The notes beneath the pieces are model-generated. The model saw nothing but the letters and a program-made list of their open reading frames with translations, was not told where the DNA came from and ran no database searches. Below, in pieces: positions 19,911 through 45,841 of a DNA stretch of 64,000 nucleotides. Each line of letters begins with the position of its first letter. Within the stretch, counting starts at the first letter, position 1. The position numbers and the translations under genes were made by a program. Origin of the DNA: Tetrahymena thermophila SB210 (Eukaryota; Ciliophora; Oligohymenophorea; Hymenostomatida; Tetrahymenidae). The stretch spans positions 434,001-498,000 of the forward strand of contig NW_002475926.1 of assembly GCF_000189635.1 (NCBI RefSeq), read 5' to 3'.

Positions 19911-20750
19911 ATGGAGAGTCTAAAGCATAGAGATAAAAATCGTTACATAGTTTAAGAAATGTTTTTCAATAAAAAGGCTCTCTTAGATTAAAAAGCTAAA
20001 TTACTTAAACTAAGAGCATACTAGTATTTTTAAAAAGAATACGTTTGCATTTTGAACTTATTTAAAGATAAAAGAGGTTAATTTTTAACTTTGCTTAGTT
20101 GGTTTTTAAACCATCATAGAATCGATTTTAAATTTATAGAGTGTTTTTAATATTTTATATTCATATCATCAAGTGACATAGCCAGGCTTTCTAATCTAGT
20201 TTTTTAATTTACAGAACTTATAAAACCAAATTTAGCTCACTTTGTTTACAATTATTAGAACCTAAAATTTGGATAGATAAGGTTTTAGCTATTAGTAAGA
20301 TTTAAATCTAAAAAACAAGAAATTTAAATTGAAAATTTACTTAAAAATTTCAATTGTGTGACTTATACAGAATATAAATATATGATTATTTTCTTTTTTG
20401 ACTATAGAGGGTTCATGACTTCGCAAATAGAGTTATAGAAAAACTAAATAGAATACGATTTCTATTACAGCTAGCCTAGAGTAGTGAGGAAAGAAGTACT
20501 TTTTCAGAATGAATAAAAAATAGAATTTTTTTAACTAAGGCAAAAACTTGATTATTTTTATAATACTAAATCAGAGAATATAAATGATAAAATATGTGAA
20601 AAAAATAATCTAGTGAATCTTGTATAGCCAATAAAGGATTTGATATATTACATTGATTTTTCTTTTATAAGTTTTTACAAAATGAAGGTGAACAAAGAAT
20701 TTATTGAACTAATTTAAAATGTAAATGAATCTAAAAACTTAAATTTATGA
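19911..20750 (+). CDS. N-terminally truncated relative of the AlbA_2-like family (copy S3)
   Basis: Single open frame, 279 aa, TGA stop. It aligns with the second half of the gene at 29834: KLLKLRAYQYFQKEYVCILN against KLLKLKAYQCFQTEYVCLLN, then YNYQNLKFGQIRFQLLVRF, IQIENLLKNFN, and FFFDYRGFMTSQ then YDFYYSQP. The AlbA_2 half present in S1 and S2 is missing, and I found no upstream exon carrying it. The first ATG follows TATTAAG, which could be a splice acceptor, so a distant or decayed first exon is conceivable. The last 90 residues are unique. The frame is intact over 840 nt, so it may still be expressed. I call it a truncated paralogue, probably on the way to a pseudogene. Confidence 0.6.
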
Positions 20751-22189: not shown

Positions 22190-25095
22190 CCCTTTTTAGT
22201 TTAATTAACTTTTATCTAATAATGTTTAATCATATAAAAAATATTTACTCAATTTAGACTTTGTTCTGTCAAATTTGATAAATTTATATTTCTGGTAGAT
22301 TAGAAAATTTTTTATTATGGATCAACTAACTAATCAGGAAAATTATAAAGGACAGTCACTTTTTTCTAGCCATAAAATCTGATTAATTTTTTTAGAATTA
22401 TTTTTTGTATAAATCAATTAAAAAATATGAAGTAAAATAATAAAAAATTTATGATTCTCAATCAAGTAAACCATAAAAAATATCAGATTCTTAAATAATT
22501 TTAAACTTTCTAACAAACAAGAACTATATTTATTTTAAGTATAGACTTTGAACTATATTTTAAGTTTAGAGTTTTTATTTATAACTAGAAATCATCCATT
22601 TTTGAATAAAATTTGTTTTTTTTCTTTCAAACTTTTATAGAAAAAAGTAAATTAAATAAAAAAATTTCATTAATATAGAAAAGAAATATGTTTATAGTAA
22701 AATATAACAATATTTTAACATATTCAGATTAATGCTTCTTTGAACTTTCTTTTATAAGAGTTAATCAGAAATTTAATAATATTACACATACAACAAATTA
22801 AATAAAGCATGCAAAGCAATAGTTTATGAAAATAAAATTAATCTTAAATTTGAAAAGATAAAAGAATATAGATCAATAAACTATTAAATATTTAAATCCT
22901 ATTACTCATTCTTAATTACTCAATTCCATAATTAAATAAGTAGTAAATTGAAATACTTTACAATTAAATGGTTTCCAAATTTAACAAATTTCTTTTTTAA
23001 TATTACAAAAGCTAAAAATTAAAAAGTAAAAATTAACTTAAATTGTAGTATAAAATACAGGTCAAAAATAAATAACATTTTCAAAGTGAACTAAACTCTA
23101 TTTAATATATTAATTAAGATAATTTTTTTATATGAAGTACTAATTTATTTAAAAATAATAAAAATAAGAAAATTTATTGATAAATAATATTTATTAAAAA
23201 AATGATCTAATATTTTAGTCTTTAAAAAAAATTTTCACAAGTATCTTGCTTATAAAGTATTATTTTAAATAGAAATTCAAAATAATCGATAATTTTTTAT
23301 AAAAAAGAAAAAACTGAGAACATTTTCCTCTAAATTTAGCCTTAAACTTAGTAAAAATTGATAAATGAAATAAATCAAATCTTTAATTTATTTTAGATAA
23401 ATTTTAAGTAAAAGATTTCTCCTTAAATCACTTTTAAAATCTATGTAGGAAGGAAGTAATTAATTAAATTATAATTATTTGAAGGTTATATTTATATAAA
23501 AATATCAAAATTAATTTCATAAAAATGAACTATAAATAAATATTTATTTTTATTCAAAAATTTATTTAATCTTTATTTTCAGTCTTAATTTAATATCATT
23601 AAATTTTTTAATAAATAAGTTAACTTTTTGAAATACGTAATAAAGTTAAAAATAATTTTGATAGTAAATAAAAACTAATTGCTATCAATCCTCATATTTA
23701 AGACTAAGTTGTATTAAAGTATAAAAATTTTTTTTGGAAACTTGTTCATGCATTAATAAGGTGTTCTTTTATATAGACTGATAATCTTATCTATTAATTA
23801 TGTTAAATAAAAAAAATATATTTAAAAATATATAAAATACTGCTGGAACTCTTAAAAGTATAGTCTAATTTATTTAATAAGTAATATTTTTGCAAAATTA
23901 GTAAAATAATAAGAGAAAATTTTTTGAGTAATTTAAATAATCGTTAGTAAAATTTTTTTTTAATTAAAATGCATAAAAGATATTTTTATTTTGAAAAGTA
24001 GAGGAAGATGGTACACTAATTTATTAGGATTGATAGCATTTTATATTTATTTATAATTAATTCAACCATAATTTAAATTTTAAATTTCATTATGAAGATA
24101 AAATTTTATTTTACTATTTATTAAATAAATTATTTAATTTTTTTAAATAATCTGAATAAAAAATATTTTAAATTTTTTCTAATTAGGGAATTTAAATTTT
24201 AATTTAAAAAATTCAAATGTAAAATTGATTATTAATGTTAAAAAAATCTTTCTTGAATATTTAATACTTTGAAATAGAGAAATTAAAATTGTTTTTTAAC
24301 TTAAATATATTCTAAAAGAAAAAATTTATTCTGATCAATATTTAAAAATACAAAAATTAAGAGACTAATTATGCTTTAAACTAATTAGTTAATATATTAA
24401 ATAAACTTTAAGATGAATATTTTAACTTTACTAATTTCATTTTTTGAAATCTTAATAAAATATAAGTTTTACAATTACACTAATATTATTTATTAAAATA
24501 AGTACCTAAAATGATGAAGATAGTGGTAATTTTTAAGAATAAATAAAAAAATTTAAATAATTAATAACCTAAAAATTGAATTAATTTAAAAATATAGATT
24601 TAAAAAAAGGAAAAAATTTTAGAGAATTTGTTAGAAATTTAGTTTCAAATAAATTATTAAATTTATTATGTTATTTTCTTAATTAGCTTTTTTAAAATGA
24701 AAGTGAGAAAATAATTTTTTGAATTTTTGTAAAAATAAAATTCATCTAAAAGTCAAAACTTATAATTCATAAATAAACCAAAAATTATGATATTTTATTT
24801 GTTTTTCTAAAATATTAGTGAATCTTTTGTTTATATCAAAAAATTTTTTAATTTTATTAAGAAATTGTAATTTTTGTTAATTAAAAAATTTATTTATTTT
24901 ATTTAAAAATTATTGTTTAGAAATTACTTTTGCAAATTGTGATTTTCTAATTAAAATTGAGAAGGAGAAAAAAAGTTGATTATAATTTTTAAATTTTAAT
25001 TTTTAATATACTTTTAAAAACATAAAATATTTTTAATTTATAATTATATATGTTTGTTTCATTACAATTTTAAATAACTTCTAATACTTTTTATA
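22190..25095. other. 2.9-kb AT-rich spacer between the tandem copies
   Basis: No gene seen on either strand. Long A/T runs dominate. The part next to 22190 should hold the promoter of copy A. Confidence 0.55.
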
Positions 25096-26211
25096 TCAAA
25101 GTTTTACACTTCTCAAATAATTAGAGAAATTTTCAGCTTTTTCTGCAACCTATTAAGGATTTAAATCAACAGCTCTTTCTGCAAAGAAGGTATTTTGAGT
25201 AACTGCATCATAACCAAAGTAATATTTAGTCAAAATTGTATTACCCAATACAAAAGAACCAACTTCAGGTTCTAATAGTAATTTGTAAACTCCTTTTGCT
25301 ATCTTTCTGGTGTAAACAGAAGCATCTAGGGTTAGAGTAAATGGGCTCTTATCTTCAGTGAGTAAAGAAATTGTAATAGGTTCTAATCCTTCAATAGTAT
25401 TTATATAGTATTGATCATGAATATCAAATTGGTTTATTGTAATTTTATAACCTCTTTCTTTTAAAATATTCAACATATATTCTAAAGTATCCTTATCTAT
25501 TGAGGTCATTTCTGTATCAAAGTAGATGGTATATCTTTTAAAAGTAGGTATTTTTTAACCGAAGAATGTTGATTCGCCATTTGAGTAAAACTAGCATTCT
25601 AACTAATAAGTATCAGTGTTATTAACAAACATTTTTACAAATTTAGAACCTGGTTTGATAAATACAGGGTTTGGTTCACCAAGATTTATTTGTCCAATAA
25701 TATCGTCTTTAGTAAAATAGGAAAGGTATTTATTGAAAAAAGTGATGTAGACTCTTGGTTAGGAAATCAATCCTTCTTTATTAAGTTGCTTCAATAAAGA
25801 CAATTATTGTTTATCATTAGTAACTTTACCAAAGCACAAGCTTTTAGTAAAATATATTACATCTGGGTAATTGACATCATTGTATTAAGCAAAAACGAGA
25901 TCAGCTTCGAAGTTACCCATTTTAAAATTGGCCTCATAGTTACTTAACCCTGAAATTTTAGTTCCAGTATTTACTGCACCACATGTATAAAGAGAACGTT
26001 CACCAGTCATTACAAAGTCTACGTCATTATTGCAGTTGATGAATTCAGCTTTTGCCTCTATCTTGCAGTTTTCAGTTCCATAAGTAGCATTAAGCCAAAT
26101 TTAGTTTTTTAAAACGTCAAACCCTACTGGGATTTAAAGCGAAGCTTAAGCACTCAAAAGCAAGCTTGCAGAAATTAAGAATAAAGCAAAGGTATTCTTA
26201 GAAATGCTCAT
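25096..26211 (-). CDS. Secreted pepsin-fold (A1-like) protein, catalytic sites degenerate (copy B)
   Basis: Tandem paralogue of the gene at 21065-22189, 371 aa in one exon. The signal peptide includes NTFALFLISASLLLSAQA. It shares GTENCKIEAKAEF, SLCFGKV, EGLISQPRVYITFFNKYLSY, DDIIGQINLGEPNP, NILKERGYKI, then FVLGNTILTKYYFGYD and TQNTFFAER. The second catalytic position reads FDTEMTS instead of D-T-G-T-S, and the first lies in LNATYGTE, so again both active-site motifs are broken. Both copies keep the same Cys pattern in the N-lobe, supporting a folded secreted product. Origin by local duplication is plain. Their shared loss of the active site suggests the ancestor was already inactive. Possible roles include ligand or inhibitor binding; not determinable from sequence. 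Confidence 0.72.
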
Positions 26212-28304
26212 TTTTTTTATCTTTATTTTATAATTTATTTTTTTATAAATTATTTGTTCGTTTAAGTCCTTTATCCATCGTGTAAATTTAGACAAATTAA
26301 AATTTCTAATTGATTAGAAAATTTTTTATGATAAATAAAAATCATGAAATTATCAAAAAAATTGATATTATTTTTCCGGTCATGAGATATAAGAAGGATT
26401 TATTTTATTAATTAAAGTGATAAACAAATAATTATTTGGTTTTTGTTAATTGAAAAATACTAATTAAAATAATAAAATTACTAATTCTCAATTATATTTT
26501 AAGTATTCTATCTTAATGATATATATTTATTTATTTTTATACTTTCTCTTTTAAAAAAAATTATTTTAGACATTTGTTTCAAATTGATATATTTGCTTTT
26601 AAAAAAAATTGCATACATATTTAATACACCAATTTATGAAAAAAAAAAGATGATTTTAATTTTTTTTAAAATCATTATGCTAAAAAGCAACTTATATAGA
26701 AATTTCGTAAAATATAGAAAAGAATTCGTATTTGAACAAAATATAAAAGAATCTATCTATATAGATTTAGCTTAAAGTGTCTATTTAGCTATTATAAACA
26801 ATATTTATCAGAAATTTAATAAAATTCTTTAAACTGTAAATAAATCAAACACTTATTTTAAATATTACACTAAAAATATAAAATATTTTGTTTTCATTTC
26901 CATTAATTTATCTATTAATGTTGTTTTTATATTTATTTATTTATTCTAGTTGACTTTAAGAGCATATTTTCAAATTATTTTTCCATTTTTCTTTTATTAC
27001 TTTTTAAATAATTAAATATTTTTTAAGAGATAAAAAAAGCCTTTTATCAAAAAGAAATTAAAAAATAAAAGAATTAATATCAATTTCTGAAAAAATAGAT
27101 GCTCTAACTAAAGAAAGATTTATTAAACATAAGCATTAATACGAAAAATGAACATATAATTAATTAATTTTAAACTTATTTCTAAAGAAAATTAAAATCA
27201 AATTATTTTTTGTTTACTTTCCATAAACAGCAACATATTTTCTAAAAATTATCAGCTCAATTCTTAAAATTATTTTATTGTTTTAATAAATTACTAAAAA
27301 AATTGAGTGGAAGTAAGATTGTTTAAATGCTAAGTTCCTTAAGTTAAAAATTAATAAATAATTAATAAAAATTTGCTAAAAATAAATTTATCATTTTAAA
27401 ATATAGATATAAAAGTAAATTTAAAAACTGTTTATTTTTGAAAAAAAAATATTCATTCTCAAAAACCAATTTCTAAAGAGAGTTTATATATGAAACATTA
27501 ACTTATTTAATTTAGTTGTTTAATTTTAGACTTTCTAAATTTTAAAAAGTTTTATTCTTAAAATAAATTAAAAAAAGAAAGAAAAAAAAATTGCTTATAA
27601 AAATAAATTAAAAAACATACTTAAATTTATTAAAGATATTTTAGAAGCATTTAAATATTGCTTAATATAAAATAAAAGATAGAATAATTTTAATAAATAT
27701 CTAATTTTAATCTATTACTTAACATAATTTTCAATTGAATTTTAGTAGTCTGAGGAACTAAAATAACTTTATTAAATAAATTAATTATTTAACCTCAACT
27801 ATTTATCTTAAAAATTATTTTATTCAAAGAATATTTAAAATTATGAAATAAATATCTTTACTTTTTAGTTAATATTAATCGATGATTAATCTTTCTTTTA
27901 TTTATTTAGTTAATGAAGCAGTTTTTAATTCTTATTATAGAATAATTTAAATTTTAAGTAAAAAAATTAAAATCAAATAAAATCAAATTTTAAAATAAAA
28001 ATAGAAAAAAATAGAAGAAGTAGACAATTCTAATTTCAAAAGGACTTTATTTATTTTTTAAATTTATTTTAGGAATTTATACAAAAGAAAATTAATACAA
28101 TTCTTAAAATTTATAGATTAAGAGTAATTGCTACTGAAATTCAATTAATCTATCAGATAATATTAAACCTATCACTTCATATATACTACTTACTATTTAT
28201 TTAATTATTTTATTAACTCTTCCTTAAATAGGAAAGAAAAATAAATACGTATTTTATTCAATAAGAAATTTTTTGAAAACAGCACATTTTATTTGTAAAA
28301 TAAA
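26212..28304. other. Intergenic, no gene seen
   Basis: About 2.1 kb of AT-rich DNA. A short open stretch at 26584-26775 (+) is Lys/Ile-rich and has no support. No relic of the neighbouring families was recognised. Confidence 0.55.
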
Positions 28305-29474
28305 ATGGAAATTGAACAATTAGAAGAAGAAAAAACACAATAAAACTTAAGTGATTCTCAAATTTAATCTTAGAAAAATGATAATACCCAAGTTAGTATA
28401 ATTAAAAAAAGAAAAAGAACAAAAGCTTTCAAATTTTGTAAATTCTACTATTAGCCACAGGATATTGATGATGAACCAGTTTATATATTTTTTTTAAATA
28501 AAATTTACAAGAATTATGAATAAGAATAATACAATTAATATAGAAACTATGGATTTACTGATGCCGGCATTGCGAAAATAGAATATGTCTAGTTAGACAA
28601 AATCTTTTAAACTATTGATTTAAAGTTTGATTTTGTTTCTTTAGGTGTAGATAACTTTAGAAAACTTATATAAATTTTTAGAAAGAAAGCAGATAGAGAT
28701 TATTTTGAGCTTTCAAATGCTCTTAAAGAGTACTAATTATGGATAAACTAAATTTTTAAAACTGCAGCAGAGTTATTCTCTGATAAGTAAATATACAATT
28801 AAAGCCATCAAGAAGAAGTTGATTAAGCCTTCCCAGATTTTGAAAGGATAGTAAAAGAATGGGCTAAGGAATAACTTCCTAATGAATTATATGAGATAGA
28901 GCTATGCTCGATTAAATATGATATGGTTAGGCCAATTCTAAAAAAAAAGATATATTCAAAAAACTTAATTTTATTTTTAGGGAGTGATCTTGAAGATATT
29001 TATTAAAAACTTATTGATTTTAACTTAAAGAGTTACATCCATAGTCTATTAAATGGAGGTGAAAATAATGGCAAATTATAATTGTAAAAGGCTATAAAAA
29101 TAATAAAATGGATGACTCAATACTAAAAGGAGGAGCTCTTCTTTGACGACGAAATTACCACTTTAGATGGCTTGTCTATCCCAACATAGAAATCATTAGC
29201 TTACTATTCTTACAACTATAAATCAAAAACTATTTCTTAAAAACGTGATTAGCATTTCTTTTATGTTACTAAATATAATTTTGAGCCTCACTGGATTAAT
29301 TACCTAATTTAGATGAGATAAAAACTATAATAAATGCCAAAGCAAATAGGATGCAACTAAGTTTATTAAATCTAAGGACAAACATTGAATTAAGTAGATA
29401 AAAACTTTGAGTTTATTTGTCAGCAAGAATATTTTTTAGAGAAATTTAACTATATATAAAAAAGTTTAAATTGA
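28305..29474 (+). CDS. P-family protein 1 (P1), novel tandem family, subgroup A
   Basis: Intronless, 389 aa. First member of a six-gene array; family not recognised. After a Glu/Gln/Lys-rich head with a KKRKRTK basic patch come family blocks: DDEPVYIFFLNKIYKNY, then YRNYGFTDAGIAKIE, a central helical stretch, KKKIYSKNLILFLG, LLNGGENNGKLQLQKAI, FDDEITTLDGLSIPTQK, FFYVTKYNFEPHWINYLIQM, and the terminal FICQQEYFLEKFNYI. Spacing suggests an N-terminal alpha/beta part, a helical middle and a C-terminal strand-rich part. No signal peptide or membrane span. Subgroup A (P1, P4, P6) shares a PNELYEIEL segment and IYQKLIDFNLK. Basic patches near the N-terminus would fit a nuclear or nucleic-acid-binding role, but this is only a hint. 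Confidence 0.8.
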
Positions 29475-29833
29475 CTTTTTTGTCAATATCCTAATTATAA
29501 TTTAAAAAACTGTTTAATTTTATAGCTATGTTAGTGAAATATTAATTATTTTTCTTCAAAAATTATTTTTTATATTACCAAAATTTTTATGATTAAATAA
29601 ATAAAATTTATTTTGTAAAAATAACCTTTGTAAAATAAAAAATTAAAAGACCAATTTTGATGAGTAAAAATTTAAATCAAAAATAAAAAATTTTTATAAA
29701 TTCAGAAATATGATTTATTTTTTTACCCTCTAAATATTTTCAAAATAATTTGCATTTATTCATGCTAAAATAACAAACAATTAAAAAAAATAATTATTTT
29801 GAATTTAGGAAAATAAACAAAAAACCTACCAAG
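29475..29833. other. Short intergenic
   Basis: AT-rich spacer between P1 and S2, both on the plus strand. Nothing recognised. Confidence 0.6.
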
Positions 29834-31168
29834 ATGTAAAACTTTTCTTTTAGTATTGATTAAATACTTGATAAATCGTTTGAATAAGAAGTAGATTTTT
29901 ATATTTTATATTATAAGATAAGTAATTATAATACAAATCAGGATTATTATCTAAGATAATTTTTACCTATTTAATTCTCTGAATAAACTAAAGAAGATGA
30001 TGTAGCTTTGTAAATTATTTGCAGCATTATAAACTCAAAAGGTGGAGTCTTATATATTGGATCGAATCAATGTTTTTATGCATCAAAACAAAATATAGAA
30101 GCATAAGATTATTTAAAAGATTGCTTAAATTAAATTCTTGAAAAAATTACACCAATACCTCACGTTTATATCAATATATAATAAGTACAATAATCAGATA
30201 TAGATTAATTTTAATGCAAAAAAGGTCTTAATCTTTATTTAGAATATTTAGTTAGCCTATAAATTTTTGGATAAAATTAAACTGCTTTGTACAAAATAAA
30301 AGAAGTAACTTATATTTCTCAATTAATAAAACAAGATTAATTGATAGAATGTTCTTAGAGAGAAGATCAAAAATTACCAATAATCTAGAATTTATTTCTG
30401 AATAAAGAATCAAAGATAAGTCTAAATGAAAAATTACTTAAATTAAAAGCTTATTAGTGCTTTTAAACAGAATATGTTTGCTTACTAAATCTTTATTTAA
30501 AAAAAAAAAATCAATTTTTAAATTACTTATCTTAGTTTTTTAATCTAAATAAGATAGATTACGAATTCTAAGAAAGCTTCTAATATTTTACCTTCATAAA
30601 ATCAAACAATGCTAAAGAATTAGCCTGTCATATATATTAATTTCTTAAGACAACTTAATTAGATTCTAGTCATTTTATATATTAGAATCAGAACTTAAAA
30701 TATGGAATGATGAGACTTCAATTATGTATTCAATTTAGTTCTATTCAAGATAAAATATAAATTGAAAATGTTCTTTCAAAATTTAATTAAGCTTCACACT
30801 ACGAAAATGGATATATTATTGCATTTTTTTATGACATTAAAGAGTTTATGATTTCATAAAATATGCTAAAGAAAATTAAAATTCAATATGATTTCTATTA
30901 TTAATAACCTGAAATAATTGAAGAAAAATATATTATCAGTTCTCAAAGAAATTATTAGAGTCAATACTTTCATAAAGATTGTTTAGATTTAACTAATACT
31001 ATTACTAACAGCTAATCACCATAGAAATCCTTTAAAACCTAGAATTTATAAAATTAGAAGTATCAATCAAGAATTCAATATAAGCTACTATAATTTGAAT
31101 TATACTGCTTTCACAACATTTTTATAGATAAACACATTAAAAAAATTAAGAATAAATTATATAAATGA
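29834..31168 (+). CDS. AlbA_2/Schlafen-like family, degenerate active site (copy S2)
   Basis: Single exon, 444 aa, sitting inside the P array on the same strand. Residues about 36-160 match the AlbA_2 half of the gene at 17477, clearest at IICSIINSKGGVLYIGSNQC (61-80) against TICSFLNREGGTILIGVTDQ. Unlike S1 there is no E-x4-E pair before the GG strand, and the acid after IG-V-T is replaced (GSNQ), so a Schlafen-type nuclease activity looks lost. Residues about 205-360 match S3: KLLKLKAYQCFQTEYVCLLN, IYQNQNLKYGMMRLQLCIQF, IQIENVLSKFN, then FFYDIKEFMISQN and YDFYYQQPE. The last 85 residues are Ser/Gln/Lys-rich, then a basic helix. It may be a pseudoenzyme partner; the placement between P1 and P2 may be functional or simple insertion. 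Confidence 0.75.
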
Positions 31169-32012
31169 ACTATTTGAGGGAGAAAGTGAATGATATGCCT
31201 AAATTTTAAAATAGAAATGAAATATAAATATGTATGATTTAAAGTACTAGAAATAGTTAAATATTTTAGTCAAAAAGATTGCATAATAAATATACAAATT
31301 AATTCTTTTATTGATCAAAATAAGTTTAATATTATTTTTAAGTATTTATTTTAATGTTTTTTTAGATTAAGTGCATTTAGAATATTACAATTTTAATATT
31401 AAATAAATTTCAATATCAAAATACTTAAATTTATATTTTATACATATTAAAAATTATATTGATTTAAAGATAATAATTTCATATTTTTAAAATTTGCTTT
31501 TAAACTTATCTCTATCAAATTTTGAAAAATTTTATGGCATCTAAATTATCTCTATAAAAAAGATGCTAAAGTATTAAAAATATACTCTTGAGAGTTTGTT
31601 TGTGAAAGGATATTAATAGAATTTTGATTCATGTTTTTATTCTAAAGTTATCAATATTTATGAAATATCTACAAAACTTCAATTATTTAGTTTTAATGAA
31701 TGAAGTTTAAGATAAAAATAATAAATATCATATTAAATTGCTATATTATTTTAGTTAATAAAAGATAATTATTATAAATTGCAAATTTAATTCTACTTTA
31801 AATAATTAATTGATATAATAGTAAATAAATTATATAGCAATAATTTACTGACGTTTGTATGTATGATTTGCAAACAACAATTATTTATAAATTGTGGAAT
31901 TGAGCCATCAGAAGAAATAGAGAATATCATAATTTATTTAATCTAGCATCATTAATTTAATAAGTGCTTAAAATAAAGAAAAGGTTATTAAAAAAAGGTT
32001 TATTTTATAAAA
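31169..32012. other. Intergenic, no gene seen
   Basis: AT-rich spacer between S2 and P2. I found no reliable remnant of either family. Confidence 0.5.
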
Positions 32013-33185
32013 ATGAGCCAATAATTTATGGAAGAAGAAGAAATAAATGAATATTAAGAAAGCTAAGAAATCAAAGATAAACAATCGCTTGAAATCGAAT
32101 AAAGTTAGAATCAAGTGGTCTAAAAGAAAAAAAGAATAGTTAAAAAAAGAGCTAAATGGATTCCCTTTCTTATTTAAAATAATTTCAATCCAGATGAGTA
32201 GCCAATCTATCTTTTTTACTTCAGAAAATGTATGAAAAGTTACGGAAACTATGAATATAATAAATATAGAACGTTTGGATTTGAAGAAGCTGGTATAGGA
32301 AGAATAGAATAATTGAAAATTGATAAGACATTTGGAAATATAGAAATATAATTAGACACTTTTCACATGGGCGAAACATCGTTTAAGTATTTGATTGACT
32401 TATATAAGTCATATTAAGATCAATAGTATTACTAACTTGCTCTTTCTCTTGAAAAATATTAGGAATGGACATAGAATCAACAAATTAACTTGAATAAAAT
32501 GTTTAATAAACTAAGAAAGACTAAATATATGCAATCTCATGTTGAGGAGCATTTAAACAACTTTGAAAATGATGTAACATATTGGATATCAGATTAATTC
32601 CAAAATGATATTTATGAAGCTTCGTTCGGATTTTGCAATGTTGAAAAAAAGCTCCCAGTATTAAAGAAGAAGATCTTTTCTAAAAATTTGATAATGTTTT
32701 TAGGAGGAGATCCAAATAAAAGTTTCTATTAAATGTAAAAATAAAATATGAAAGAAAACACAAACTATCTTTTTGGCGGAGAAGAGTTTGATGGTAAAAT
32801 TTAACTTGAAAAAATGATACATCTGTTAAATTAATAATTAAGTGGTGAATTAAAATGTGTTGTTAAAGACCAAGTAATAACAATAGAAGGAGTAATTTTA
32901 CCGACTACTAAAACTATAACTACATACTTTTATGATGAGATTAAAAGAGAAATCACTTAAACACCTACTTTATTTTATATAATTGTGACATAATACAATT
33001 TCGAAGCAAATTGGATAAAATATCTTATGGATTTGAGAAATAATATGAATTAAGGATCTAGTTATACTTTAGATCAATCTTAAATGAGCTCAGAAACTAT
33101 TTCTCATTAATCTGATAATGTGATTAAAAATTTCGAATTTATGTGTTAGCAAGAGTATTTCCTAGAAAAATTTAATTACATCTGA
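32013..33185 (+). CDS. P-family protein 2 (P2), subgroup B
   Basis: Intronless, 390 aa; a second in-frame ATG five codons on (32028) is an equally good start. Head is Glu/Gln-rich with KKKRIVKKRAK. Family blocks: DEQPIYLFYFRKCMKSY, KYRTFGFEEAGIGRIE, LYKSYQDQQYYQLALSLEKY, KKKIFSKNLIMFLGGD, FGGEEFDGKIQLEKMI, then VITIEGVILPTTKTITTYFY, YNFEANWIKYLMDLR and FMCQQEYFLEKFNYI as the last 15 residues before TGA. Subgroup B (P2, P3, P5) shares the YKSYQDQQYY motif and a WIPFL-type segment before the first block. No targeting sequence seen. Function unknown. Confidence 0.8.
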
Positions 33186-33972
33186 AGAGCAAGCAAGTGA
33201 TTGCTACAAAATTCATTTAATCAATCTTACTCTCATTCATTCATTCATAAAATTTATGCAAACAAACAAACAAAAAAGAATAAATTTACAAACAAAACAA
33301 ACAAATAACTACTGTATCAATATTAATAATTTATATAAACATTTATCTTACTAGTTGCTTTCTTAATTTTACTATTATATCTTACATTTCTCAGTTAATT
33401 CTAAACATTAATTTATATTAACTCAATCAAATATTATCATGAAAGTAAAGTGTTGGTAGAGTTTATTCTGATAATTTTTTATACTACTTATTTTTTAGTC
33501 ATTTATATTTTTTTTTTTACATTATTAACATGTGTAAGCATTAAGTAAAAATAAATATTTAAATAAATAAATTGAAAAAATCTTTGTAAACATGATTTTC
33601 ATAGTATAAAATTAAAAAATATTTGGTTTAAGCAAAATTTTGTTCTTTGTAAAGTGTATCTTTTATTAAAATTAATATAAAGTAAATGGTCTTCCTTATG
33701 TGTAAGATAAAGTATAATTAAAATCTAACATGGTTTACTTTATTAAATTAAGATTTTGTAAATCTTAAAAAGAAGTGGAAAAAACAAAACATTACTCGTC
33801 TAAAAAATGCAAGCATTTTATGGTATTTTTGTTTTCTTAGAGATAGAATTTGATATTTTTTTAAGACGGTATTTATTTGTTAATATCAAATCTTTTTAAA
33901 ATCAGGTTATTTTTATAAATTAAATAATTGTAAAATCAATTAAGCAGATTAATAAAATTGCAAATTAATAGA
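33186..33972. other. Intergenic with simple repeats
   Basis: Spacer between P2 and P3. It opens with (TCAT)4 at 33233-33248 and an (AAAC)n run at 33258-33276, and is otherwise plain AT-rich DNA. Confidence 0.6.
33233..33276. repeat. Tetranucleotide microsatellites
   Basis: (TCAT)4 followed about 10 nt later by an (ACAA)-type run, in the 3' flank of P2. Simple slippage repeats; no role inferred. Confidence 0.7.
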
Positions 33973-35121
33973 ATGCGCTTAAAGTAAGAGCAATTAAACT
34001 ACGATGATGAAGAGTTAGCTAGAGAAAAGGAATAAAATAAAGTAGCTATAGTTAAAGCTCCTCTTAAACCTTGCAAAAGGAGGAGAAGAAAAAACAAATA
34101 AATATAATGGGTTCCTTTTTTATTGAAAAATAATATCAACTCTGATTCAGAACCCGTTTACATTTCTTTTTTCAAAAAATTTATGAGGAAATATGATAAC
34201 TAATATTATAATAAATATCGCAATTATGGGTTAATTGATGCAGGATATATTACGATAGAATAGATGACACTAGATAAAATATATGGAAATTTATTGGTTT
34301 AAATTCGCAATCATTCTTCAGGAATTATCAACTTCTAACATTTGATTGACCTATACAAATCATACTAAGATCAGTAATATTACGAGCTAGCTAATTTGCT
34401 AGACATATACTAGACCTACCATAAAAATTAGATTAAACATATTCAATACTATCTAAACCAAGAGATATCTAATAATAATATAACCTAGGAAGATATTGAT
34501 GAAGTTTATAAAATATTTCAGTAAGATGCGATAGACTGGGCTTAATAAAATTATGAGAATGAAATATACGAAATGAGCTTAATATATATGAATTTAGAGA
34601 CTAAAACACCCGTTTTAAAGTAAAAAGTATTTTCTAAAAACCTGATTATGTTTATTACTAGGGATTTTTATAATTTTTATTCTAAACTATCATGCTAAAA
34701 TATGAAAGAAAATTTGTCTTTAATATTGCATGGAGATGAGTTTGATGGAAGACTATAGCTTGAAAATAGAATTAAAATGATGAAGTAAACATTGAATGGA
34801 GAAACTTGTATTTAAGTAGAAGATGAAATAATTACTGCTGAAGGGTTAGTTATACCAACTACTAAATAAATACATCTATATTTCTATGACTATTAAACTA
34901 GAGAGATTTCTAAAAAACACAACTATTTTTTTATTCATTTAATTAAATATAATTTTGAAGCTAATTAGATATAGCGATTAATTAATATGAGATAACAAAA
35001 TAGTTGGAATAATTTAATAAATTAAAATATTGATAAAGATAATTCTTAAGACCATATAATTACTAACTTTGATTCCATTTGCTAATAAGAATATTTTTTA
35101 GAAAAATTTAATTATATTTGA
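33973..35121 (+). CDS. P-family protein 3 (P3), subgroup B
   Basis: Intronless, 382 aa. The basic head (KPCKRRRRKNK) precedes WVPFLLKNN, DSEPVYISFFKKFMRKY, KYRNYGLIDAGYITIE, LYKSYQDQQYYELANLL, VFSKNLIMFI, HGDEFDGRLQLENRI, IITAEGLVIPTTKQ, KYNFEANQIQRLINMR and a terminal ICQQEYFLEKFNYI. It lacks the LGG step after the MF strand (IMFITRDF here) and has GDEFDG in place of NGGE, so it is the more diverged B copy beside P5. All blocks are in the same order as in the other members. The frame is intact, arguing against pseudogene status. Confidence 0.8.
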
Positions 35122-36440
35122 TAAATTTTATTATTTGAGTAACAAAATTTTATATTATATTTAATCCTATTATTGTTTCAATTTAATTCATTTGCTTAAT
35201 TGCTTGTGTTTTCTTATATCAAACTTTAAACAAAAATATTATTTAAACTATTATTAAATAGCAATTATTAAATAAATATATATTAAATAAATCTAAGTAA
35301 ATAATTTCACATAAAATATAAAAAATAATTAATTTAAGGAATAAAAAAAGATTTTTATTAATTTAATCTTTGTAAGCTGTAAGATTTTTAGAGAATTTGA
35401 AATTATAACAAATACCTATATTAATTTTATGATTAATGAAAATTATATTAATGTTTAATATGAATTAACATTTTAAATATTTTGCGTTTATCATTTCAAA
35501 AATATAAATTAAAATAACAAAATTCCTGATACTCAATTATTATATTTTAAGTTATTATAAATTAATTATATTTTTATACTTGTTAAAATGAGTTTAGATA
35601 TTGGTTTAAGATCTAAATATTTTTTTTTTAAATTAGGTATTAAATACAAAAGTTAATAATCTTTGTATATATGATGCAAAAATTTCATGAAGACTTAAAA
35701 AATATATTGAATTTTGCAATTTATTTTTGAATAAGTTAAATTGCAAAATTCTACTTTTATATATCAAAATTTTAATGATTAAATTGTTTTTATTTAATTT
35801 ATTTTCTATATTTATAAGCTTGCTAGATTTAAAATTTTTTAATTTTTTTGTTAATTAATTTATAAATGAATAAATAACTAAATTATTCAAGTTTGCATAT
35901 TAATACTTTTGTTTAAACACTTTTTCTATTTTTATGAACAAGCTTATTTTTTAAATTCTAAAAATTTTATTATTTTAGTTAATTTTTAAATTAATAAATT
36001 ACTCATTTATTAAAGTTTTCTATAAAATGTGTATTGATAATAAATAAGGGCTATTTCTATTTTTATGATTTAGTTAGCTTACAAGAATTCTAAACTTTTA
36101 TTATTTTAATTCATAGATAAATAAAAAAATAAATTATTAAAGTTTATTATAAAATGTAGAAGTTTTATAGATAAAAATGGTTATGCTTAATTAGTAAATA
36201 ATGATTTAAAAAATAATATATTTGAAAGATTTCATTTATTTGGTTTATCTAAATTTAATTATTTATTTAAAACTTAAGTTTTTTTATTTCTATAATAACT
36301 TTGAAGAATTTTTTCTGTTAAATTATGGTCAGAAAAAATTTTCAAATTTTAAATAAATAATAATAAATCAATCACTACAAGTTTTAAATTTAAATAAATT
36401 TAGAATAGACAAATATCATATAAAGTGAATAATATTATTT
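35122..36440. other. Intergenic, no gene seen
   Basis: 1.3-kb AT-rich spacer between P3 and the S4 relic. No coding frame of the local families was recognised in it. Confidence 0.55.
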
Positions 36441-36749
36441 ATGGAAGATTATTTAGTTAATTACATTTTTTTATTAATACATGAATAAGATTAGCTAAGA
36501 ATCATATATTTTATTTGTAAACCTAAAATTCATGCTAATTATTAATTACTCTAATTCCTCTTTGAGTAAGGCAATTTATATTAAAACCGATTTTTAATTT
36601 ATTTTTTCTATGACCACAAAATCATGTATTTCTAAGGTGATTACCTTTTTATATTATATGAGAAATTGCAGCATATTTATTTAGTCATAATATTAATAAT
36701 ATTATTATTAATTTATATTTTAAAAATTATAGTTAATCAAAATTTTTGA
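36441..36749 (+). pseudogene. AlbA_2-family relic with terminal membrane span (copy S4)
   Basis: Open frame of 102 aa ending at TGA, 37 nt before the P4 start. Residues about 18-70 resemble the C-terminal half of S2/S3: QLRIIYFICKP against MRLQLCIQFSS, and RFLIYFFYDHKIMYFQGDYL against YIIAFFYDIKEFMISQNML. The upstream AlbA_2 domain and the first part of the C-terminal domain are absent. The end (IYLVIILIILLLIYILKII) is a strongly hydrophobic segment with no counterpart in S1-S3, either a real membrane anchor or read-through into AT-rich DNA. I favour a decayed copy; a small membrane protein made from a fragment is the alternative. Confidence 0.4.
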
Positions 36750-36786
36750 ATAAATAAAAGGTTTTAAAATAATGATCCAACATTAA

Positions 36787-37953
36787 ATGATATAACAATA
36801 ATAGAAAGAATAAAAAAAATAAAACTAAGCAAATGACTAAAAAAATATTACACAGTATCAGCAAAAAAATAGCGCTCTAACAAAAAAAAATTAAATCTAA
36901 AAAATGAAGAAGGTAAAGGTTCTTAAAATTTCAAAGCTTTACTAATAGCTTAAAGAAATTGACGATGAGCCGATATACATATATTTTTTAATAAAGATAT
37001 ATAAAAGTTATGAACAAGAAAGTTACTGTTAGTATCGGAATTATGGGTTTGCAGATGCTAAGATAGCAAAGATTGAGTATGTATAACTTGATAAGATATA
37101 TTAAACTATTGACATACATTTTGATTTCTTTTCTTCAGGAGTTGATAATTTTTAAAAATTAATAAAAATGTTCAAAAGAAAATAAAGTCAGATTTACTTA
37201 AATCTCTCTGTTGCCTTAAAATAATATCAAATTCATATTAACGATCTTTCAAAAATTATTGTAAATTTATTTTCAGATAAAAACGAATCTCCTGATAATA
37301 TACAAGAAAGAATAGATTAAGCTTATCCAGAATTTGAACAAACTGTGAAGCAATGGGCTTGCGAAGAGCTAGCTAACGAATTGTATGAAATCGAACTATG
37401 CGTAGCTAAAATAAATATATGTAAACCAACTCTCAAGAAAAAGATTTACTCCAAAAATTTGATGTTATTTTTAGGTGGTGACCTTGAAGAAATTTACTCA
37501 AAGCTTATTGATCTTAATTTGAAAGATGTTATTCAAAATTTTTTAAATGGAGGAGAATTTAATGGCGAGATGTAACTTGAAAAAACAATTAAAATTTTAT
37601 AATGGATGATTAGATAAAATTATAATGATTAGCTGACATTTTAAGATGAGATATTTACAATTGACGGAATTACTATCCCAACTTAAAAAACACTGAAATA
37701 CTATTGTTATGATTATCAGAAAAATGAGGTGGTCTAATACCACTAATTTCATTTTTTTTATGTGACTCTATACAATTTTGAGCCAAGTTGGATAAGATAT
37801 TTATTAGAGACTAGATATACTCTATAGTAAATACCCAAACAAATTTAATAAGAAGAATATTCAAGCAAAATTTAAAACTAAGTTTAGAATAACTTTGAAT
37901 TTATATGTAAATAAGAGTATTTTTTAGAGAAATTCAATTATTTTAAAAAGTGA
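36787..37953 (+). CDS. P-family protein 4 (P4), subgroup A
   Basis: Intronless, 388 aa. The head is Gln/Lys/Asn-rich and almost all its glutamines are TAA or TAG. Blocks: DDEPIYIYFLIKIYKSY, QYRNYGFADAKIAKIE, GVDNFQKLIKMF, ANELYEIELCVAKI, KKKIYSKNLMLFLGGD, EIYSKLIDLNLK, LNGGEFNGEMQLEKTI, FQDEIFTIDGITIPTQKTL, LYNFEPSWIRYLLETR and FICKQEYFLEKFNY near the end. It is closest to P1 (shared GVDNF, NELYEIEL, YSKNL, LIDLNLK). It also has a second ATG at about residue 47 (MKKVKVLK) that would drop the low-complexity head; the longer start is chosen because the head is open and compositionally like the heads of the others. Confidence 0.78.
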
Positions 37954-38560
37954 TTTCTTCTATTCGAAAATTAAAAAATTAGAGATTTAAAAAATAAAAA
38001 GTATAAAAATGTATTAATTGTCGTCTTTAAAAAATATATGTAAATTTTTTTTACCATTCAAAAGTAAAGTATTTTATTCTTTTATTTAATGCATTGTGAA
38101 CTTTATAAAACTCATAAATAAAGTCTCTCTTATTGTTTTTCATAAATTAATATAATTTTTAAGAGTTGAATAAATAAATTGAAAAATAATAAATAAAATA
38201 GCTAATTTGATAATTTTTTTTATTTCTAAAATTAAATAATATTCATTTTTACACTTTATAAATTTATTTCGAAAAACAAATATTTTTTAAATTTACTTTT
38301 AAAAAATTAATTTAATTTATCAAAGATTTTTTTATCAAACTCAATAACTATTAAGTCCAAAAAAGTACTAGTAAATTATATATTGCTATTTACTTGATTC
38401 CCTTTTCACTTTTATCAGATATTGATTGGTATTTCAGATTAAAATAAACAAATTTTCTGATAAGGATATGATATAATCTATTAATTTATGACTTTAAAGA
38501 ATTACATCAATTAATTAAATAAATTAATTAATTTGTATCAAAAGAACTTTAAACAAACTA
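37954..38560. other. Intergenic, no gene seen
   Basis: AT-rich spacer between P4 and P5. Nothing recognised. Confidence 0.6.
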
Positions 38561-39679
38561 ATGGAAGAAGAAAAAGAAAAAGATTCACAATAAACTATAG
38601 TAAATTATAAATAGAAAACGATTAAAAAAAAGAAAAAGAAACTATAATAAGCTGGTTGGATTCCATTAATATAGAATATATTGTTAAACTTTAGTAATGA
38701 GCCTGTATATATTCCTTTTTACAAAAAAATTATGAAGAGATATGATGATGAGAATTATAACAAATATAGAAATTATGGATTTACTGATTCTGGTTTTTGT
38801 AGTATAGATTAGATTAAATTAGACTATATCCATGAAAATTTATAAATTTCAATGAATACTCATTCCATAGGAAATAGAGATTTTTCGTTTTTAATTGAGA
38901 TGTATAAATCATACCAAGATCAATAGTATTATGAGCTTGCTATACTACTTGAAAAATATTAAATAAAATGTTAGCAATAAATAAGCAAGCTAGAATAAGT
39001 AATTGATGAATTAAATTAAATGAAATATATTACTCAAGAAGAACTAAGTGAATCTTTTGATATGTTTGAAAAAGATGTAATGGATTGGGTAAATTAAAAT
39101 ATTCAAAATGAAATTTATGAATTATCATTAGGGTTCATTAATTTTGAATCTAAAATTCCTGATATTAAAAAAAAAATATTCTCAAAAAATATAATTGAGT
39201 TTTTAGCAAGAGATATCTAAACTTTTTTTTCATAACTTTCTTAGAAAAACATGAAAATTGAGCTTGATAATTTGATGAATGGTTAAGAATTTAGTGGAAG
39301 AATTTAGCTTGAAAAAAAGATCAATACGTTTAAATAGATTTTGAGTGATTAGAAATACATAGAAACAGAAGATGAAGTAATAACTATTGAAGGATTAGTG
39401 CTACCAGCTAAAAGAAAATCAAAAATGTTATTTTATAATCATAGAAATAGATAAATAACAAAAGAATAAAACTTAATGTTTTTTATAATTAGAACGTATG
39501 ACTTCGATGCATCTCAAATCTAGCGTTTAATTAACTTAAGAAACGAACTATTATCTAATTTCTTTAAGAATAATAAACATCCAAACTTTTAAAATAGTAG
39601 CTTTTAAGGAAACATTTTCTAAAATTTTGAGTATGCATGTCAATAAGAATATTTTTTAGAAAAGTTTAAATACATATGA
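38561..39679 (+). CDS. P-family protein 5 (P5), subgroup B
   Basis: Intronless, 372 aa, the shortest member. Short acidic/basic head with KTIKKKKKKL, then WIPLIQN, NEPVYIPFYKKIMKRY, KYRNYGFTDSGFCSID, MYKSYQDQQYYELAILLEKY, FESKIPDIKKKIFSKN, NGQEFSGRIQLEKKI, VITIEGLVLPAKRK, FDASQIQRLINLR, and the terminal ACQQEYFLEKFKYI. Relative to its sisters the LPTTK block is LPAKR and the YNFEP block is YDFDA, so this copy is the most changed in the C-terminal half, yet the final signature is kept. The conservation of the last 12 residues against a drifting background marks them as functionally important. Confidence 0.78.
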
Positions 39680-40515
39680 AAGAAAAATAAATCAAATTAT
39701 AATGTAATTTAATATCTGGTAGCTATTTAAGTTGTTGAATAGAATTTTATTGAAAATTATTTTAAATTATACAAGTTTAAATTCATTTTGGGGCTAAAAT
39801 AATTGCCAAAAATAATAGTCAAAGAAATATTTATTTTTATAATTTTTCACCTTATCTTCTTATCTTTAAATAATTTAAACTTTAAAAGAATTATTTTTAT
39901 TATTTAAAGCAAATTGTGCTCAAAAAATTATAAATTTAAAGCAAGACTATAAATCATATTTAAAGAAAATTGATTAAAATAATTATTTAGGAAATTATTT
40001 TAGTCTTTAATTACATGTAAATGATTTATAGTTTTTCAGTTAATAATTTATCATATTTAATACGCATTTTAAACTAAAATAGAAAAAAAGACTTTTTTTA
40101 ACTGTAAAGATTATTTTTTTTAATGCTTCTATTTAATTCTAATATTGAAATTAAATTTGTTATTTTTCTACTACATTAATTAATTAAAATAGATGAAAGA
40201 CTGAATGGATATTAATTAAAAATCACTAGTAAATAGAATTTGTAATTAAATGCGAGCTATTTTTTACTTAAAAAAAATGAAAGCTTTACACTTTAATATT
40301 AAATTGCTTCCAAATTTTTTATTTTATTTATTGAACAACTTATATAAAAATAAAAACTATTTCTGAGAATATTAAGAAAAATCATTACCAGTAGAATTGT
40401 TTATTTTAAGGTATTCATAGAATTAATTGATTTTTTTGTTATTAAGTAAAGAAAGGAATTTTAGATTACATAAACATTTTTTTATAATAAAAAAAAATAA
40501 ATCTGAAAAAAAAAA
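39680..40515. other. Intergenic, no gene seen
   Basis: AT-rich spacer between P5 and P6. No gene or family relic recognised. Confidence 0.6.
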
Positions 40516-41700
40516 ATGGAAATAGAAGAAGAAGAAAAAATTTAAAAAAATGAAACTTAAATTGCTATAAAAAGATAAAAATATCCTAAATCCGAAAGCG
40601 ATAAAATAGTAAAGGCAAATATGAATAGATATAAAAAGAAAAAGTAAGTTTAAGTTTTGGTGCATCCAAATATACCTTGCAGTGTGATGAATTTGAACCA
40701 AGAACCAATTTATATTTATTTTTTATTTAAAATCTTTAAGAGTTATGATAATGAAGATTATAATAAGCATAGATACTTTGGATACGCAGATGCAGGAGTA
40801 GGAAGAATAGATTAGATTTATTTAGATAAGGTAAATGAAACCATTGATTTAAATTTACAAATCTACTCTCAAGGATACGAGGATTATAAGTATCTAATAT
40901 AGATTTTTAAAAATAAATAAGATATCTTGTATTATAATTTGGCTAATTTATTAGAATAATATTAGCAGTGGACTAACTAGCATTTATCCTATATTTTAAA
41001 TGCCTTTTCTGATAAAAATATTTTTAATTAATCATTCTAAGAAAAAATTGATTAGGCATAACCAGAGTTTGAGTCAGTAGTTAAAAAATGGGCTTAAGAA
41101 AAATTTCCTAATGAATTATTTGAAATAGAGTTAGGCACTGTCAATATAAACCAAGCAAAACCTATTCTTTTAAAAAAAATATTTTCCTAAGGCTTAATGA
41201 TGCTTTTAGGAGGTGAAGTTTATGATATATATTAAAAGCTAATTGAATATAATTTAAAAGAGAGCTTAAGTAGCTTTTTGAATGGTGGAGAATATAATGG
41301 GAGATTGCAGTTAGAAAAAATAATAATTTTAATAAAAAGCTTCATGTAAAATAACTATACCCATGTTGTTTTTGAAGATGAAATATTTACTTTAGATGGT
41401 ATTTCAATACCAACTAAGAAAACTATTAAAACATATTATTACGATGAAGAGCAAAAATAAATAAATTAGAAGCCTAATATGTATTTTATTATCATAACAT
41501 TCTATAATTTTGAATCTAATTGGATAAAGTATTTGATAGAAATAAGATAGTAATTCTCTTAGTTAAGAAAAGAAATTGAGTATCCTGGAATAAAAGAAGC
41601 ATCTCAGAAATAATTTTATAAAAATTTTGAATACATTTGCAAATAAGAATACTTTTTAGAAAAATTTGATTACACAAACAAATTCTAAGACAGCTAATGA
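40516..41700 (+). CDS. P-family protein 6 (P6), subgroup A
   Basis: Intronless, 394 aa, last of the array. Head Glu/Lys-rich. Blocks: NQEPIYIYFLFKIFKSY, KHRYFGYADAGVGRID, FPNELFEIELGTV, KKIFSQGLMMLLGGE, DIYQKLIEYNLKES, LNGGEYNGRLQLEKII, FEDEIFTLDGISIPTKKTI, FYNFESNWIKYLIEIR and YICKQEYFLEKFDYT, followed by eight more residues to TGA. It groups with P1 and P4 by PNELFEIEL, DIYQKLI and LDGISIPT. An antisense open stretch here is only a shadow of this frame. Confidence 0.8.
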
Positions 41701-42118: not shown

Positions 42119-44135
42119 TCAGAGAGAATCCTTTCTGATATTTAATATTTCTTCATCTCCTTCAGGAACGTACCAATCTTTCTTGGCAAGGACACGACTT
42201 GTGTAGCCCTTTTCATTTGAGACATCACGTTTAACAGTGATGAATCCAGGGATTTTAATTTCTTAATCTTCTTAAAGCTTAGCTTTGAGTAAGCTGAAAC
42301 CTTCTTTTACATTTAAGTAAGTATCGATAACATAATAGATACCTTCCCACATGAAACAGATTCTTTCTTTAAGGAGAGGTTAGCGTGTGGGATCACGAAG
42401 AGATAATAAGAAGAGGTATTCTTTGAAGTTGAGTTATTTCTTTTGAGTAGAAACCTAAACATCATTTATGAATTCATTTTATGACCACAAGTAGACAAAT
42501 TAACTACCTTGTCCTCTTCTACGAACTTTAGTATATATTTTATGATTTTTATCTTTAATAGGTAAGTTGTGTTAAATGAAGACATCTTCAATATAGAACT
42601 TTTGTATTTTAATGTTAGCTTCATTTGATGAAACAAAGTTAGAGTATTCGAGTAAATATCTTTTATGCACTTTATTAAGAGATCCTGAGAGACCAACTGA
42701 TAGTCTAACTATACTTACTAACTTATCTAGCTTGTCTTCAAAATTCTTCACTGAAATATTATCTATAATTTAATAGTTAGGGTGACCCAACCAAGCGAGT
42801 TAAAGCTTTCTGTCGACAACAATAGCATCACTAGGAGATTCGTGTCTGACATCATTATCCTTGTTGTAGTAATTTTAAGCACCATCAGCAGCAGTTACTA
42901 AATGAATGACTAAATCGTATCTATTTATTTATTTTAAATAAAGTTAATTTAATTAATTATAAATTTTATTTAGATTTGTTTTGATTAAATTCATAGAATT
43001 TTCTTTTTTGTTACAAAAATAAAGATTTTAAAAAAGAAAACAAAAGAGAGATTCTCTGATTTGATTTAAGACAAATAGAATAGGTATATGCAGTGAATGA
43101 GTGAAAGGTATCTTAGATTTATTTCTTTAAATTGAATGCAGTAAAAGAATCAAATTTAAATAAAACAATTGTCTAAATTTATTTGCTGAATACAATCTTA
43201 TAATGCTTTAGCTTTTTTAAATATCTATGATCGATCATTATTTAAAATACCTACTTATTGATTAAATGAATTTTGTTTTTTATTTAAATCTATTCTATTT
43301 AAACTATCCAAGTTGATTGATTCACTGACTATTCTAAGTTGAAATTATCTAAGAGCTTGGTAAATTGTGTTAAAACGTTTGAATTTTTGAAATTAAATTA
43401 ATATATAAATTGTTTTATCCATTACCTTTTATCACGAATTTGGACTTCAGTTAAACCCATCTATTCTAGCATCTTGTTCCATAGGTTAGGGGGAAGATAA
43501 GCAGATCCATCCATAAGACCTCTGTCACAAAGAATAACAGATTTTCTATTTGAAAGCTTTGCAATACCATGGAACGAGTCTTCAAGTTGTACTTGAGTCT
43601 TCATCAAGGCCTTTTGGAAATTAATTTACTAGGTGTCATCGTAATGAGACATATCAATCATACCACCTCCATTTGCTATCATAGTAGCAGCTTCGGGGAC
43701 AGTAAATACATTAAAACCTTCATCACGTAACTTTTCAGAAAGAAGAACCAAACCTGAGGTTTTACCAGCACAAGGACCACCAGTAATACAAATTTTATGA
43801 ACGAGTTTATTGGATTCGTTAACAGACTTAGAAATCTACTTTTCAAGAGCAAGTTCGTTTTCTAAATTTTGGCTGCTTTCTTTCTTTTAGTTATTAGATT
43901 TTGCAAAAGCTGACAAAATTTACTAATCAAGCCCGTTTTCAGCATCTAATTCAGAGGGTTAAGCACTTTATGATTCAGCTTTTTATTCTACGAGCTTGAG
44001 AAGTTACTTTAATTAAACTTCTCTGTTGTTAATACTTTGAGAGCACTTATTGGCTACAATAGCACTAATAGCTGCACTTCCAGCTAGAGCTAATCCCTTA
44101 AGGATGCTAGAAAGTTAAGTATTTGAATCACTCAT
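42119..44135 (-). CDS. Ttd14-like P-loop NTPase with CYTH-like C-terminal domain
   Basis: Two exons (43426-44135, 42119-42920; 505-nt intron, phase 2) give 503 aa. Homologues of Drosophila TRPL translocation defect 14 bind GTP and phosphoinositide and act in membrane-protein traffic. Residues 11-28 (ILKGLALAGSAAISAIVA) are hydrophobic, a likely membrane anchor absent from the core family. A Gln/Glu-rich linker follows. The AAA_28-type domain has Walker A GGPCAGKT at 119-126, VFTVPEAATMI, and VILCDRGLMDGSAYLP. The C-terminal half has charged strand pairs (VSSNEANIKIQKFYIEDVFI, then KVRRRGQGSQFVY) as in CYTH-like tunnels, ending PGFITVKRDVSNEKGYTSR. All sizes fit the family. Target membrane and cargo unknown. 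Confidence 0.87.
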
Positions 44136-45841
44136 ATTAATATTGATTGTTTTTTTTACAAAATTTTTATAAAGGATAACTTATATTAGAATTAACTTAT
44201 GCTTGCTTTAGTGAGAGGGTATAAGCTTTTCTTGATGATGTCAAAGAAATGTTTATAAAGCCTTTTACTACTACCTTTTATGAGATTATTTTATCTGTCT
44301 AAAACTAAATGATTAGTTCTTTAGATCGTTTAATTTTTTTAAACAAATAGGAATAATTTTGGGATAAAAAATAATCCAAATAAATTATTTATAATTAGCC
44401 GCTAATTTTTAAAGCCTACATTGCAAAGCAAAGCAAGAGTCCCCCTCCTCTTCTTATAATATTTAACTAGCTTTACCAAATTTCAAATAAATCTTTTTTA
44501 TTTTAAATATCTTAAGATATGCTTCTAGCATTAACACTAATTTTATGTAATTGAATAGACAATGCATTCCTGCATGCTTAACTTGGTCCCTCATTTTTCA
44601 GCCCGCAAATTTTAGTATCTCATTTATACTTAGCATCAATTTAAAATCTTTTGAATTCTTAAGAGTTCTACAAATTTAAATGAGAGAGAGTATTCACAAT
44701 AAAATAAATATTTTAATGCATGAATAAATACAAAGTAAGCAATCTGCATAGAAAAGTATGCTTGTAAGTGTTATTTAAATAGAAATGTCCAAGAATTATA
44801 AAATTTACTCAAGTAGCTTCATAGAATAGAGGCATATTTTTTATCAAAATCGATAATATTTAATGAAAAACGAAGGAGAATTATAGATAAAAAGCTATAA
44901 TTAGTAAAGTTAAATGTTACATTTTATTTGGTGGAGAGATTTAGGATATAAACTACCTTTAATTACTGTTTAACAATCAAGCAACAGATTAAGATTTTAT
45001 AACAAGTTAAGCATCAAAGTGAATATTTATTTAATATTATTTATTAAATTAAACACCACACATAAGATAAAGTAAAATGCATCATAAATGATTGCTGTTA
45101 TTAGATAAGCAAATAGTACATTTTAAAATTGATTGATGAAGTTCTATTTATTGTAATCTCTAAAATCTTATTCAGACTAAGACAATAAATACCTTAACAA
45201 TATTTAAAGTAGGTAGGTAGGTTAATCTTTGTTTAATGAGCTTGCTTGCTAAAATGACTTTGGCTTAAAAAGTAAATCGGAAATTCATATATTTCTATAT
45301 CTTTTATTTTTATACCGATTTAATTATTTCTTAAAAAAATAAGAAAATACAAAATAAATTCAAATGAAATAAATATAAAACGACATTTATTTTTTATTAT
45401 TTTTCTAAATTAAAAAATTTCATTCAGTTCGTGTGTTGTTTCTTCTTCAGTATTTTTGAGAAATTTACTAGTAATATTATATTTAACATACCTATTAAAG
45501 TTTTTTATAGAACAATTTAGAGTACCCCTTTAAATATAGTTTGGGGATAAATGTAATTTATTTATATACCAAACTCCTTTTAATAATTTATTTTATTAGT
45601 TGACCCATCAAATTTATTTATTTTCAAAAGCATAATATAAAATTAAAATGAAACGAAGTATAATAGATTTAATTATTTTGTTTTTATTTTTTAGAAAAAA
45701 GATAAAGATTTATTATAATTTTATTAAATTTATTAAAAATAGATAGATATTGAAGCAGCTAGTTTGTTTTTATTAGTCATCATATGTACAAATATTTTTA
45801 ATTAAATTATATAAAATTAAACTAGATTATTTTTTTGTATT
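44136..45841. other. Intergenic, no gene seen
   Basis: 1.7 kb upstream of the Ttd14-like gene and downstream of the coiled-coil gene. 44150-44700 is somewhat richer in G/C than the rest and may hold UTR or promoter sequence, but I see no coding frame. Confidence 0.5.

Follow-up and report, generated by a model that had tools for sequence, protein, structure and literature searches.

A 64,000-nucleotide stretch of the Tetrahymena thermophila SB210 genome (contig NW_002475926.1, here C442, positions 434,001 to 498,000; hereafter the window) carries six similar genes in tandem, P1–P6, whose products end in nearly the same short peptide. The locus raises the question of what kind of protein is encoded here and why the ending is so closely kept. 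P1–P6 were originally described as a six-gene family. Judged by sequence similarity, they are one tandem branch of a much larger superfamily with at least 65 gene places, in which the C-terminal peptide recurs.

The array and its superfamily

The array spans C442:462305-475700 (window 28305-41700), 40–54 kb from a telomere-capped end. As the original prediction held, its genes are intronless, lie on the plus strand and encode 372–394 amino acids; all six are intact single frames under genetic code 6, in which TAA and TAG are read as glutamine (Table 1). The proteins are homologous over their full length with pairwise identities of 31–58%. The six copies stand, but they do not form an uninterrupted run, as a non-family open reading frame (ORF), P0007, separates P1 from P2. 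Phylogenetic trees group P1, P4 and P6 (support 99/97 in a first tree and 99/98 in a larger one). The cluster of P2, P3 and P5 is weaker, with 94/91 in the first tree and only P3/P5 kept in the larger. If the former branch is called A and the latter B, the order along the DNA is A-B-B-A-B-A.

Table 1. Features of the window. Positions are those of the whole 64-kb stretch.
Feature	Position	Strand	Size	Basis or remark
P1	28305-29474	+	389 aa	Open frame under code 6, family alignment
P1 basic arm, densest part (IIKKRKRTK)	28398-28424	+		Matching place in other copies
P1 tail, CQQEYFLEKFNY	29418-29453	+		
P0007, non-family ORF within array	29762-31168	+	468 aa	Weak SLFN_AlbA_2 match
P2	32013-33185	+	390 aa	Open frame, family alignment; start placed where family similarity begins, frame open upstream to ATG at 31863
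P2 tail, CQQEYFLEKFNY	33144-33179	+		
P3	33973-35121	+	382 aa	Open frame, family alignment; start placed at onset of family similarity, frame continues open upstream
P3 tail, CQQEYFLEKFNY	35080-35115	+		
P4	36772-37953	+	393 aa	Open frame, family alignment; start placed as for P3, frame continues open upstream
P4 tail, CKQEYFLEKFNY	37906-37941	+		
P5	38561-39679	+	372 aa	Open frame, family alignment
P5 tail, CQQEYFLEKFKY	39638-39673	+		
P6	40516-41700	+	394 aa	Open frame, family alignment
P6 tail, CKQEYFLEKFDY	41638-41673	+		
Deoxynucleoside kinase	4248-5324	-		Pfam
PP2C phosphatase	13833-15848	+		Pfam
AAA_28 ATPase	42888-44240	-		Pfam
Histone H4 gene	53795-54226	-		
Sua5/YrdC	55401-56870	-		Pfam

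The extent of the superfamily was estimated from the union of searches with the close copies (including P5 and Q2, the latter from contig C173), two newly found family ORFs and the C308 domain. The union holds at least 40 places at E ≤ 1e-10, at least 65 at E ≤ 1e-5, spread over 35 contigs, and at least 73 at E ≤ 1e-3, all of them lower bounds from one 101 Mb Tetrahymena genome. Queries with Q2 and P5 matched weak relatives elsewhere in the genome. Eight stretches, comprising weak relatives and a match on C123 described below, were read with a profile of nine close copies; six contained family ORFs, 11 ORFs in all passing the profile threshold, and in the other two (L057 and L059) no ORF passed it. 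Alignment and profile scores support homology of the core over its full length. One further member, on C221, lies outside the 65, with E 0.006 for the P5 query and 2.1e-9 for the profile. An artefact of AT-rich composition is an unlikely source of the distant matches, since the C308 domain query gave 44 matches at E ≤ 1e-3 forward and no candidates reversed; this is one control for one query, and its empty answer alone shows little.

Twenty-five members were read, namely nine of the ten close copies and 16 others selected partly by score; left out were the C17 member and the third C91 copy, each divided between two ORFs, which in the C91 copy overlap. They fall into three deep groups, EYF (the group of the array genes), FYP and EKYY, with ultrafast bootstrap values of 99–100 and values of 97–99 in the Shimodaira–Hasegawa-like approximate likelihood ratio test (SH-aLRT), in an unrooted tree with some long branches. 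Three or four superfamily places occur per contig on C138, C279, C91, C340, C281, C327 and C398, and local duplication is therefore habitual in the family.

Four close relatives of the array lie on another chromosome (C173), of which Q2, Q3 and Q4 are intact. In the remaining one, Q1 (C173:236073-237185), the family match switches frame in overlapping stretches (236073-237173); because of this jump Q1 is read as apparently broken, unless the assembly is in error here. Minus-strand ORFs with LRR-like repeats, noted by eye, lie among the C173 copies (C173:236-256 kb). The ratio of nonsynonymous to synonymous substitution rates (dN/dS, Nei-Gojobori) is 0.32 for Q2–Q4 and 0.23 for Q1–Q3, the latter over the intact C-terminal 232 amino acids of Q1 only. 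Between array members dN/dS is 0.18–0.30 at a dS of 1.7–2.4 or beyond, which says little because synonymous sites are near saturation. An array of pseudogenes or relics is unlikely in view of the six intact frames together with the ratios of 0.23–0.32 in the close C173 pairs. It is also very improbable that the family is one of fast birth and death, made up of mostly silent duplicates that do little at present. Tandem arrays, a frame-broken C173 copy and fast divergence of the core would all be expected of such a family, and PMC6564038 describes species-specific Tetrahymena genes as often tandem, weakly expressed and with raised Ka/Ks. Against this, every array frame is intact, dN/dS is well under 1 in close pairs and the same tail is kept over deeply diverged clades.

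The C-terminal tail

The ending first proposed, C-[QK]-QEYFLEKF-x-Y, is present in all six array proteins. It lies close to the stop codon as described; the distance given, 1–11 residues, needs correction, as the final tyrosine stands 1–8 residues before the stop. In the form C-x-[QK]EYF[LI]EK[FY] the tail is found in 10 of 10 close copies, six in the array and four on C173. The tail is not a chance feature, because the back-translated pattern [QK]EYF[LIFM]EK[FY] matched 11 times in the whole genome and its backward control not at all. Ten of these matches are the copies just named. The eleventh, on C123, reads KEYFFEKY, and none of the ORFs in the 6 kb around it scored well enough for inclusion by the family profile (best E 0.41). 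The codons of the tail vary synonymously, and it is therefore the protein that is conserved and not the DNA; these synonymous differences rule out both DNA-level conservation and recent gene conversion.

Among all 12-residue windows of the nine intact close copies the tail ranks first in conservation (0.75 identity), and the linker ahead of it, which differs in length between copies, is among the least conserved stretches (0.14). An F-[LIV]-x-[KRN]-[FY]-(x)-Y tail closes each of the 25 superfamily members read, over all three deep clades, and is the top 10-residue window of the alignment, with 0.53 identity where the mean is 0.21 (24 rows, Q4 being dropped as a near-copy). The typical C-terminal peptide of the superfamily is [FL]-x-[YF]-x2-[EQ]-x3-F-[LIV]-x-[KR]-[FY]-(x)-Y. 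The suggestion that selection holds the tail is borne out, in that selection acts on it at the protein level, and no other stretch of the superfamily members read is as well conserved.

Basic arm, core and a possible mode of action

Each protein begins with a variable acidic or glutamine-rich head, followed by an arm rich in lysine and arginine and by a core of about 300 residues that is moderately conserved; a variable linker then leads to the C-terminal peptide. Two N-terminal motifs, P-[VI]-Y and [YH]R-x2-G-[FLY]-x-[DE][AS], occur in all six array proteins as reported. They had been taken for fixed termini of the family and prove to be specific to the array; of the three intact C173 copies one has the first motif and none the second. 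The body has not simply drifted, as had been thought, because the nine intact close copies share conserved blocks at P1 residues 121–135 (0.55) and 211–225 (0.56).

The arm is a family-wide feature as far as the members could be tested. In all 16 testable ones, those with the N-terminus inside the piece read (the other nine of the 25 have it outside), the 28 residues before the core equal or exceed any other 28-residue window in lysine and arginine content. When the head alone was shuffled, the basic run scored at or under 0.05 in seven of nine close copies.

This layout is best explained, tentatively and at somewhat less than an even chance, by a set of paralogues associated with the nucleus or with nucleic acids. 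The basic arm would direct the proteins to the nucleus or to nucleic acid, the specificity of each paralogue would lie in its diverging core, and the tail would dock all of them onto one shared partner; such a partner would be the reason why the tail alone hardly changes. A detached docking peptide is favoured because the linker before the tail is variable. Proteins with short C-terminal docking motifs likewise carry an end peptide that follows a variable linker and is better conserved than the body. FLEKFY is not known to match any named docking motif.

Nearly as likely, the tail may be the structural element that ends the core, folding back to complete the domain, so that its conservation would reflect folding. 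Its richness in aromatic and hydrophobic residues and its presence in 25 of 25 members would suit a core element, and linkers ahead of elements that complete a core may also vary freely; for one packing element, on the other hand, it would be unusual to surpass every window of the core in conservation. That the tail could equally belong to the fold is one of several points that weigh against docking paralogues with a nuclear or nucleic-acid role. Many proteins have basic patches, and the earlier claim of basic heads, upheld for the family by the 16 testable members, fails the head-only shuffle in P4 (0.37) and P6 (0.29), where the basic run is not significant. In addition, the weakest distant matches depend on E-values from single queries, and stronger matches are over-represented among the members read.

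Known families and neighbouring genes

The original prediction could not place the family, and profile searches of the six proteins agree, giving no significant match in Pfam, NCBIfam, PHROGs or PADLOC; nor did the superfamily relatives scanned match any Pfam family significantly. Weak Pfam matches (YcxB, KH_PARP14_6, BCAS2, DUF1871 and others) fall under the cut-offs and differ between copies. Sequence searches of the PDB with the six and their relatives gave no credible relative. The matches to a mitochondrial NADH dehydrogenase subunit, kinesins, polymerase subunits and a fatty-acid-binding protein are weak, and those to designed repeat proteins (best E 1.6e-4) run through repeated short stretches; all are taken as chance because they are short or repetitive or change from one search to the next. 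No phage or bacterial-defence relatives were found in PHROGs and PADLOC, and among viral contigs 286 stretches matched a pattern and none encodes a relative.

The one fold that was pursued further is PAS. By eye, the core shows a PAS-like order of motifs (S-x2-[LF]-x2-[LF]-[LIM]-G, T-x-[DE]-G and a final strand) with a basic segment upstream, as in PAS proteins including the fungal ERT1/AcuK type, and a four-sequence PAS alignment scored 16.8 over 24 columns, above all of 150 column shuffles (maximum 14.6). A very divergent PAS fold for the core, which would make the family a set of PAS-type regulators with a basic arm, is nonetheless improbable. The hhalign probability of this alignment is just 0.6%, and profile similarity was absent from a decoy-controlled test, in which seven PAS sequences ranked 73–198 of 247 against 246 E. 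coli decoys. A control PAS profile gave rank 1 to each of three E. coli PAS domains and rank 8 to PYP. The family is not filed as PAS because PAS sequences fall among the decoys while the control profile succeeds. At E ≤ 10 Pfam gave the six proteins no PAS model; the scanned relatives likewise matched none, and the PDB matches include no PAS chain.

Proteins of the Schlafen AlbA_2 type are neighbours in the window, and P1–P6 themselves have no Pfam match to SLFN_AlbA_2. This domain is the sole Pfam lead for P0007 (E 4.8e-4, 21.1 bits, below the Pfam cut-off of 25.3), and a clear match lies upstream of the array at 17435-18634 (+; E 1.2e-17, Pfam). The ORF at 19884-20699 (+) resembles the C-terminal part of P0007 (33% identity, E 8.3e-38), and the three plus-strand ORFs form a small local Schlafen AlbA_2-related group. 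Two minus-strand ORFs of 418 amino acids each (21068-22321 and 25099-26352), whose starts look alike and which have no Pfam match, are perhaps another duplicated pair. The histone H4 gene downstream of the array is perhaps HHF1 (TTHERM_00498190, the identifier as given in PMC5844071). By eye, a set of ORFs from about 61.7 kb looks like the WD-repeat protein FAP44 (TTHERM_00498220, as named in PMC6208767). Estimated from two flanking identifiers, those of the array genes are perhaps near TTHERM_00498070-00498130. The 101 Mb genome also contains the telomerase RNA of T. thermophila, and together with these landmarks this makes that species very probable as the source.

The array resembles the species-specific tandem families of Tetrahymena in its same-orientation copies, fast divergence and presence in several clusters, with six tandem copies on C442 and four on C173. 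PMC6564038 describes many such genes, often tandem and with LRR genes foremost, and finds germline regions that are pericentromeric or subtelomeric enriched in them. Unlike the families named there, P1–P6 contain no LRR, TPR, WD40, kinase, CNBD, GFR or P-loop NTPase domain according to Pfam. They also differ from the young LRR genes described there, which consist of arrays of 90-bp exons, in being intronless and in their fixed C-terminal tail. No paper on the array genes was recognised among the main texts of one open library; in supplements or the Tetrahymena Genome Database the genes may be listed as hypothetical proteins. The superfamily is apparently undescribed.

At least 65 gene places without a profile in any of the four libraries represent a sizeable annotation gap in a model organism. 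More speculatively, and on present evidence doubtful, the superfamily might supply at least 65 nuclear proteins as a set of adaptors or regulators, in which the arm would contact DNA or RNA, the core would read a variable cue and the tail would join each protein to the same machine. The tail offers a simple handle on the superfamily, since naming a common partner could point to what all its members do. If the core is a known fold in disguise, the superfamily would be a hidden protein class in ciliates.

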